A stretch of 64,000 nucleotides of DNA from Flectonema sp. DT1601 (Eukaryota; Euglenozoa; Diplonemea; Diplonemida; Diplonemidae): contig OZ025796.1 of NCBI GenBank assembly GCA_964019425.1, forward strand, positions 806,001-870,000. Reading direction: 5' to 3'. The notes below the pieces were generated by a model. The model was given only the letters and a program-made list of their open reading frames with translations, was not told the DNA's origin and ran no database searches. The position numbers and the translations under genes were made by a program. Each line of letters begins with the position of its first letter. The first letter of the stretch is position 1. This document shows, piece by piece, positions 48,927-51,900 of the stretch.

Positions 48927-51900
48927 TTATCCTTCAGAATCAGTGTCAGGAATGTTGTCCAGGTCACTTTCAGTTTCAGCTCTTCCCTTATCAAGGAGAA
49001 GCTCGTTAATAGCGTCTCCTCCACTGTTTGTTTTATTATAAAAGTTGATTAGCTATTTTCATTTTAAATAAAAGAAAAGGAACACAAGGAACATACACAT
49101 CAATTCTTTTATCCCAGTACTTCCAAGTTCTGTCAAAGGCACAGCTCACAATACTATTGTCTGGACTGATATCAACGGACATTACTTTATCATCATGGCC
49201 TCTTAAGGTTCTGATGTGCTGTTGTTGTTGTTGTTGTTGTTGTTGTTGTTGTTGTTGTTGTTGTTGTTGTTGTTGTTGTTGTTGTTGTTGTTGTTGTTGT
49301 TGTTGTTGTTGTTGTTGTTGTTGTTGTTGTTGTTGTTGTTGTTGTTGTTGTTGTTGTTGTTGTTGTTGTTGTTGTTGTTGTTGTTGTTGTTGTTGTTGTT
49401 GTTGTTGTTGTTGTTGTTGTTGTTGTTGTTGTTGTTGTTGTTGTTGTTGTTGTTGTTGTTGTTGTTGTTGTTGTTGTTGTTGTTGTTGTTGTTGTTGTTG
49501 TTGTTGTTGTTGTTGTTGTTGTTGTTGTTGTTGTTGTTGTTGTTGTTGTTGTTGTTGTTGTTGTTGTTGTTGTTGTTGTTGTTGTTGTTGTTGTTGTTGT
49601 TGTTGTTGTTGTTGTTGTTGTTGTTGTTGTTGTTGTTGTTGTTGTTGTTGTTGTTGTTGTTGTTGTTGTTGTTGTTGTTGTTGTTGTTGTTGTTGTTGTT
49701 GTTGTTGTTGTTGTTGTTGTTGTTGTTGTTGTTGTTGTTGTTGTTGTTGTTGTTGTTGTTGTTGTTGTTGTTGTTGTTGTTGTTGTTGTTGTTGTTGTTG
49801 TTGTTGTTGTTGTTGTTGTTGTTGTTGTTGTTGTTGTTGTTGTTGTTGTTGTTGTTGTTGTTGTTGTTGTTGTTGTTGTTGTTGTTGTTGTTGTTGTTGT
49901 TGTTGTTGTTGTTGTTGTTGTTGTTGTTGTTGTTGTTGTTGTTGTTGTTGTTGTTGTTGTTGTTGTTGTTGTTGTTGTTGTTGTTGTTGTTGTTGTTGTT
50001 GTTGTTGTTGTTGTTGTTGTTGTTGTTGTTGTTGTTGTTGTTGTTGTTGTTGTTGTTGTTGTTGTTGTTGTTGTTGTTGTTGTTGTTGTTGTTGTTGTTG
50101 TTGTTGTTGTTGTTGTTGTTGTTGTTGTTGTTGTTGTTGTTGTTGTTGTTGTTGTTGTTGTTGTTGTTGTTGTTGTTGTTGTTGTTGTTGTTGTTGTTGT
50201 TGTTGTTGTTGTTGTTGTTGTTGTTGTTGTTGTTGTTGTTGTTGTTGTTGTTGTTGTTGTTGTTGTTGTTGTTGTTGTTGTTGTTGTTGTTGTTGTTGTT
50301 GTTGTTGTTGTTGTTGTTGTTGTTGTTGTTGTTGTTGTTGTTGTTGTTGTTGTTGTTGTTGTTGTTGTTGTTGTTGTTGTTGTTGTTGTTGTTGTTGTTG
50401 TTGTTGTTGTTGTTGTTGTTGTTGTTGTTGTTGTTGTTGTTGTTGTTGTTGTTGTTGTTGTTGTTGTTGTTGTTGTTGTTGTTGTTGTTGTTGTTGTTGT
50501 TGTTGTTGTTGTTGTTGTTGTTGTTGTTGTTGTTGTTGTTGTTGTTGTTGTTGTTGTTGTTGTTGTTGTTGTTGTTGTTGTTGTTGTTGTTGTTGTTGTT
50601 GTTGTTGTTGTTGTTGTTGTTGTTGTTGTTGTTGTTGTTGTTGTTGTTGTTGTTGTTGTTGTTGTTGTTGTTTCTTTTTCTTCTTTTTTTTTCTTGAAAT
50701 GAAATTATAACGACATAAGTAAGAAAGTAATATTAAAACACACCGTAAAATCATTAGCATCCCAGATCTTAACCGTCGTGTCGTATGAGGAGGTGACGAG
50801 GAAGTTGCCAGAGCTGTCGAATTTTGCAGATGAGATGAGTCCTCCATGAGCAGAGATTGTTTTTATAACTTCTCGTCTACGAAGATCCCAAAGTTTGATA
50901 ATGTTATCATCTCCTCCTGTACACATGAGCCATCCATTTGGGGAGAATGAAACAGCGATGACTTGTTTTTGATGTCCTTGGAGAACAAATATCGAATATC
51001 CATGTCTTAGGTCCCATATTCTTCCAATACCCGACGTATCACCAGTCGCTACTAAGGAACCATCACATTGAATATCAATTCCGTAAACAGGTGCTGAGTG
51101 ACCTTCTTGATCTAATACACCATAAGCCTGTCTACCTGCTGTGACATCCCATAGTCTCCAAGTTCTATCTTGAGATGATGTCGCAAGAAAACTTCCTGAA
51201 GGATGCATTGCAATCTTATTTATCCTATCACTATGTCCACCAAGGGTCTCTATCGGGTTTTCACTATCAAGATTCCATAACTTCACTGATTTATCAGCTG
51301 AACATGAAGCAAAGTTCAAAGATGATTTATCCTGTGATAATAATGCCTTAGGATGCCAACAAACACCAGTAACTCTATCCTTGTGTCCGTGATATGTATT
51401 TATGTAGTCTTCGGTTTTGTCACATTCTGGTATGTTAAAAAGACGAATCTTTGAATCCCAAGATGAGATAAGAGAATGTTTTCCATCAGGTGAAACTTTA
51501 ATACCAGACAATGGTCTGTCACCTCCAACTTGTGAGGCGTAGGTTGTATATCCTGAAAGGTTGTGTTGTTGAGATGATCTACCACTTGTAATTAATTCTT
51601 TAGTTGTTTCTTTTAGTTTTTGTTGTTGACAAGCTACTCTTGAGCGAGCAGCTTTGAGTGAATATGATGTTATTTCTAGTCTGGCTTCACGAAGAGCTTC
51701 TGAACCTTTCGTCATGAAACGTTCTGTTTGCTGTTCAGCCTGTGTCTGTGTTACTGTTATTTTCTGAAGTGTTTTTCCGGAAAGTACTTCTCCAGTTAGC
51801 ACTTTTCGAAGTCGAAGTCGACGTTCGTAAGGTCCTTCTCCGAATAGTGTGACAGGTTCACCCATATCTCTTAATCTTATTCTCACATCTCCATCCAGCA

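Follow-up and report, generated by a model that had tools for sequence, protein, structure and literature searches.

A perfect array of 483 CAA triplets at the predicted acceptor of a PRPF4 intron, and a class of similar arrays at putative 3' splice sites of a probable diplonemid genome

The first intron of the PRPF4 gene described here ends in an uninterrupted array of CAA triplets, and this array probably arose when the 3' end of a short spliceosomal intron of the ordinary kind, its native acceptor tract, was lengthened. The array belongs to a class of long CAA arrays, many of which can be fitted to introns near a putative acceptor. The window, by which we mean the whole stretch of 64,000 nucleotides that was analysed, contains the gene on its minus strand, with the following features:

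50744..52027, minus strand: PRPF4 exon 1 (codons 1-428)
49219..50743, minus strand: PRPF4 intron 1, 1525 nt, phase 0, donor GTGTGT, acceptor CAG
50671..50743, minus strand: 5' part of PRPF4 intron 1 outside the array, 73 nt
49222..50670, minus strand: (CAA)483, perfect, its sense strand without AG or GT
49219..49221, minus strand: acceptor CAG adjoining the last CAA of PRPF4 intron 1
49097..49218, minus strand: PRPF4 exon 2
49024..49096, minus strand: PRPF4 intron 2, ordinary, 73 nt, GTATGT...AATAAAACAAACAG, an internal comparison
48927..49023, minus strand: PRPF4 exon 3 and stop

A single period-3 run, perfect over its 1453 bases (49220-50672), was returned by both Tandem Repeats Finder and an exact run finder. 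On the minus strand it reads, together with the acceptor, AA(CAA)483CAG, the GT donor beginning at 50743 and the CAG occupying 49221-49219. A run of this length is not due to chance, because the next non-homopolymer triplet run in the window, as given by the exact run finder, measures only 26 bases. With 483 perfect units of a single triplet the array has the appearance of a triplet repeat expansion, and no triplet runs of at least 36 bases other than CAA/TTG were present in 231 kb of loci, mostly chosen for CAA arrays. The initial annotation had described the intron as 483 perfect CAA units ending in CAG. The count, the coordinates and the acceptor proved exact, but the intron also has a unique 5' part of 73 nt (50743-50671). 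Its statement that the repeat itself forms the acceptor is borne out, since (CAA)483 runs straight into the CAG, and so is the lack of a pyrimidine tract, the sequence before that CAG being the CAA array. Upstream of the array, the intron holds four AG dinucleotides, ending 3, 9, 12 and 22 nt before it.

Several other repeats were seen. A 48-base minisatellite of 7.3 copies (99%) at 56509-56859, open on the plus strand and containing LVSGTTVEPDGKLVGE repeats, adjoins a diverged field of 12/24-base repeats at 56941-57378 that is also open on the plus strand. At 34880-34965 a nine-base repeat coding SPH units lies in a long minus-strand open reading frame, and at 52443-52475 the minus strand carries, upstream of PRPF4, a G-rich run with two long G tracts. 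A perfect 328-base AAAAC array (7651) and a 49-base AAAAT run (1434), both in L045, are the sole other microsatellite runs of at least 36 bases in the loci scanned.

By homology, the gene is PRPF4, encoding Prp4 of the U4/U6 snRNP. The spliced protein aligns to human Prp4 (3jcr_L) over residues 34-463 with an E value of 1.4e-106 and no gap at the junction of intron 1, which is spanned by KIWDANDFT on the exon 1 side and HIRTLRGHDDKVM on the other. Pfam assigns PRP4 (47.2 bits, cut-off 25) and WD40 (180.9 bits) to the joined protein, and Beta-prop_WDR3_1st at 337-464 crosses the same junction. Having a GT donor, an AG acceptor, an in-frame join and unbroken homology, intron 1 is on sequence grounds a GT-AG intron. 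PRPF4 is single-copy in the assembly: its three exons match C17 with 100, 84 and 89% identity, the alignments at 84 and 89% overhanging the exon ends, and the next-best place reaches 32%.

Ordinary introns in this genome are short and tend to have A-rich ACAG ends in place of a pyrimidine tract. They were sought with a scan that required only [ACT]AG of the acceptor, made use of coding score, frame and stops, and took candidates of up to 200 nt; it yielded 68 candidates, among which 30 different ones measure no more than 120 nt, and replaced an earlier, stricter scan that had given 4, both being run without RNA training. ACAG ends 11 of the 23 candidates with a score of at least 6 versus 17% when every [ACT]AG of those stretches is counted (binomial, 6e-4), although these 23 come from an automatic scan, surely include false positives and in 12 cases end otherwise. 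CAACAG is found in 3 of the 23, compared with 4.7%, and positions -23 to -4 of the 13 candidates ending in CAG are 55% A, 26% T, 15% C and 3.5% G. Some ordinary acceptors carry CAACAACAG, and a CAA seed is directly visible in intron ends such as AATAAAACAACAACAG and AATAACAATAACAACAACAG. With acceptors of this composition, the earlier proposal that a native acceptor of the CAACAACAG type served as the seed for expansion is plausible.

The assembly (89.5 Mb, 92 contigs) was searched for exact edges of CAA arrays with at least some 10 units. There were 155 right edges, of which 86 end in CA[CGT] (CAG in 48 of these), 42 in CAA followed by a base other than C and 27 in other ways, and there were 164 left edges; when edges were paired, 10 right and 20 left ones found no partner. 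Arrays of 100 or more units number 30 in the genome, 29 obtained by pairing and one, on C42, counted by hand from an unpaired start and end (473 units, one interruption, 21 more units, then CAG), and two of the 30, on C78, are tandem copies of one locus. Nineteen reach 250 units and hold between 265 and 832, the PRPF4 run being the seventh in length.

Both flanks were examined for all 30 arrays of 100 or more units, and 19 of these arrays, PRPF4 among them, fit introns in which the exons join in frame and CAA is on the sense strand near the acceptor. The splice sites of these 19 introns were chosen by eye and then tested for frame, the phase with the longest open reading frames being kept; phases 0, 1 and 2 occur in 10, 5 and 4 cases, and the downstream open reading frames are short in C27, C11_441 and C45. 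The donor lies 28-192 nt (median 54) from the array. From the array to the end of the acceptor AG there are 3 nt in 11 introns, where the array runs directly into CAG, 4-6 nt in three, 13-20 nt in four and 44 nt in one. When 10 of the joined proteins were compared with Pfam, a match extended across the junction in six (Peptidase_M41, Thioredoxin, Pkinase, BILBO1_N, PCI and, for PRPF4, Beta-prop_WDR3_1st), the junction of the Pkinase protein falling inside HRD; two of the other four have DnaJ and Prefoldin matches away from the junction and two have no match. The initial annotation had attached meaning to the location of the repeat in a splicing factor gene. This was dropped because comparable arrays form a class in diverse genes: PRPF4 is one of 19, and the other intron-fitting arrays with 100 or more sense-strand CAA units sit in genes unrelated to it.

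One further array, on C47 (L055, L070; 465 units), has TTG on the sense strand directly after the donor GTATGTTGTTG, in a putative intron that ends in AAAACAAAAAAAACAG. The 20 arrays that fit introns are thus oriented 19:1 in favour of CAA-sense versus TTG-sense (binomial, 4e-5), with genes having been sought first in the CAA direction. No intron was assigned to the remaining 10 arrays (C50, C2_534, C2_491, C3_393, C72_353, C78 twice, C28, C39 and C81); C50 has a likely donor, and no acceptor could be placed for it. For arrays of fewer than 100 units, 45-nt flanks were viewed among 30 loci, longer flanks for eight and joins for four, of which L010, L037 and L011 joined in frame and L044 (43 units) gave no clear join. 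Since the acceptor-side arrays of L010 (18 units) and L037 (70 units) join in frame like the larger ones, array sizes form a continuum. At L011 a 26-unit TTG array follows a GTGTG donor at about 1500, as a mirror of the CAA arrays at acceptors, and is bordered by 324 and 294 open codons.

Repeat length is unstable in this genome, as can be seen from five tandem copies at C78:28621-55517 (L062, L075, L091, L095-L097) that have near-identical flanks and carry 39, 49, 67, 125 and 314 CAA units. In ungapped comparison with the 314-unit copy, the upstream flanks of the four others have 0 mismatches over 663-995 nt. One downstream flank is without mismatch in 727 nt, and the three others have 0 mismatches in their first 517, 634 and 634 nt, beyond which the register is lost. 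This family is among the arrays without an acceptor assignment, and it speaks for the behaviour of the repeat in the genome, not for the PRPF4 intron.

The proposed starting point is an A-rich acceptor tract that held a short CAA seed, such as acceptors tending to A-rich ACAG would carry. Slippage or a similar process may have lengthened the seed until PRPF4 carried several hundred perfect units and, as the reading frames indicate, 18 other genes carried at least 100. The resulting (CAA)n would be tolerated on account of its resemblance to the native tract and its freedom from AG, GT and stable fold. (CAA)100 has a predicted free energy of 0, and because the value for (TTG)100 is likewise 0, the lack of a fold leaves the orientation unexplained; a 151-nt intron model is predicted to fold less stably than most of its shuffled versions. 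In the passages available from melting work on such repeats, (CAA)17 transcripts are cited as unstructured and a 3-unit CAA oligonucleotide formed a duplex (PMC9144543).

As (CAA)n offers no AG, GT or predicted fold, splicing may reach the first AG after the array. The second splicing step would then proceed to that AG, in PRPF4 the terminal CAG, and we infer that introns of this class are removed at the AGs that follow the arrays. The branch point would be located either in the short 5' part, which in PRPF4 places it more than 1.4 kb (over 1450 nt) from the AG, or inside the array; in the giant arrays a branch point upstream of the repeat would be 0.8-2.5 kb from the AG. A branch point either very distant or within CAA had been anticipated by the initial annotation, and both placements are compatible with an AG-free array directly before CAG. 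An AG is present between donor and array in 18 of the 19 introns, the sole such AG of C32 being inside the donor, and the upstream edge of the array adjoins, in C42 and in C73, what looks like a good acceptor (TTTTAG, AACAAAACAG) that may itself be the site used. A strict first-AG rule would be expected to use these AGs unless they are before the branch point, too near it, or ignored.

The arrays could instead be exonic if an upstream AG were used and the repeat were translated as a glutamine run, which in PRPF4 would amount to up to KKKK followed by Q483. The CAA frame does run open into the frame of exon 2 from each of the AGs 3, 9 and 12 nt before the PRPF4 array, and some shorter CAA arrays (L035/L036, L039) look by eye like coding poly-Gln with interspersed CAG. 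However, human Prp4 has no insertion at this site, 9 of the 19 arrays would encode Thr or Asn and not Gln, and translation would separate HR from D in the kinase and split the thioredoxin domain of a PDI-like protein; the upstream AGs of PRPF4 are, moreover, AAG, unlike the ACAG favoured at ordinary acceptors. A translated poly-Gln is the outcome that the initial annotation had set against its own reading, and while the open frame from three upstream AGs is in its favour, the human alignment and the Thr and Asn phases make it unlikely. The lengths of the arrays might also be artefacts of assembly or consensus, perfect low-complexity runs being hard for any assembler. This is very unlikely, as lengths vary among loci and among near-identical tandem copies (39-314 units), so that there is no fixed artefact length, and the flanks give continuous genes at both sides.

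It is possible, if somewhat doubtful, that the orientation of the arrays results from transcription, with a transcription-linked mutation expanding CAA on the coding strand anywhere and introns tolerating the product, an origin that would be compatible with the proposed splicing. Among the arrays not assigned to introns, C50, C2_534, C2_491, C3_393, C72_353 and C28 are CAA-sense to the best-scoring open reading frame of their flanks, C39 is mixed, and C78 and C81 are weak. Against such a bias, orientation is reversed at the donor end, where C47 (465 units) and L011 (26 units) are TTG-sense right after GTATG/GTGTG donors, as seeding from splice signals predicts, and 11 of the 19 acceptor-side arrays stop exactly at CAG. 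The length of the PRPF4 repeat might tune the splicing of PRPF4 and so feed back on splicing generally, PRPF4 being a U4/U6 snRNP protein and an intronic triplet expansion being described as reducing expression of Arabidopsis IIL1 in the passages available (PMC5006647); yet the class occurs in unrelated genes among which PRPF4 has no distinguishing mark, and feedback of this kind is highly improbable. We give hardly any credence to the idea that the arrays, in the manner of transposons or introners, are mobile introns or the tails of retroelements inserting themselves as introns. A-rich sequence does precede many arrays, but it is typical of ordinary acceptors, the 5' parts of the 19 introns are unlike each other, with no shared sequence by eye, and the lengths form a continuum. 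Expansion of a native acceptor tract is the reading that we prefer.

Triplet expansions within introns are known already; giant CAA arrays at acceptors, or some 20 expansions apparently making up the acceptor region itself, were not found in the open-access literature. The GAA expansion of FXN in Friedreich ataxia is an intronic repeat that affects expression and lies within the intron, and the TG/T tract of a CFTR intron is situated at the acceptor, measures tens of bases and includes the pyrimidine tract. The IIL1 repeat of Arabidopsis Bur-0 resembles the present arrays in that the passages available describe intronic triplets of more than 200 units in a metabolic gene, varying in length among accessions (PMC5006647). 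It differs in being GAA/TTC in the third intron of one gene with a temperature-dependent drop in transcript, its location relative to the acceptor not being stated in those passages, whereas here CAA occupies about 20 introns and mostly adjoins the AG. Distant branch points with AG exclusion zones likewise have an AG-free stretch before the 3' splice site, and the passages on human introns report branch points as far as 400 nt from the AG with no AG between (PMC1431707). In the present genome the AG-free stretch of arrays of 100 or more units extends from about 330 nt to 2.5 kb and consists of one repeat, any distant branch point being putative.

There is a likeness, too, to the 3' splice sites known from diplonemids and especially from Diplonema japonicum, which has A where others have a pyrimidine tract; the passages available also describe GTATG donors, used by three of six diplonemids, CAG acceptors and short introns, as are found here (PMC12621601). 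Giant repeats are not mentioned in those passages, and the genomes concerned are fragmented drafts of short contigs from which, according to the authors, repetitive sequence is missing. The paper on the Diplonema papillatum genome does not use the terms 'microsatellite' and 'simple repeats' in its main text (PMC10161547), and for two prokinetoplastids the passages available report no introns (PMC7859406).

The spliced leader, the GTATG donors, the A-rich CAG acceptors and a BILBO1_N domain, a euglenozoan marker found by Pfam in one joined protein, agree with a diplonemid genome, and the host, a single-celled flagellate, is very probably a diplonemid. A 24-nt spliced-leader motif, presumably that of Diplonema, has 725 matches within 2 mismatches in the genome and 0 in the control. 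A 39-nt leader containing this motif has been printed for Euglenozoa (PMC3795323, in the part available). Two loci, L099 and L100, read ACCAACGATTCTAAAGCTACAGTTTCTGTACTTTATTG, followed by TTTTTT in L099 and by GTTTGG in L100, so that GT is present in L100 only. Among the matches listed, the motif occurs in tandem units of about 623 bases at C16:1432456-1446807 and of about 610 bases on C20 from 1248661 to at least 1287876. Rfam gave nothing at gathering scores for the window and the two spliced-leader loci. Of two rRNA motifs searched in the genome the first had 0 matches and the second 30, and one copy from a tandem rDNA array matches SSU_rRNA_eukarya across the whole model. The small-subunit rRNA 3' motif forms sets on C39, C79 and C92 and also has dispersed single sites, and L094 holds what appears by eye to be an isolated rRNA fragment beside a protein gene.

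Tentatively, and with less than even confidence, we suggest that the spliceosome of this lineage may accept acceptor tracts of almost any length when these are unstructured and free of AG, that the acceptor consensus may act as a microsatellite seed, and that branch points may be far from the AG or within the repeat. If this is true, repeats can grow to kilobases at splice sites in this lineage, and the arrays represent a natural series of graded distances from branch point to AG of up to 2.5 kb. Such a series would naturally test both the range over which the spliceosome searches for an AG without obstacle and its need for a polypyrimidine tract. If the introns are removed as their sequence suggests, splicing signals have here been stretched well beyond known limits. 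The composition of a splice signal would then be linked to repeat expansion, in that essential genes may suffer expansions and the organism still lives. Removal of these introns, if confirmed, would stand in contrast to the intronic expansions of people and plants, which harm expression.
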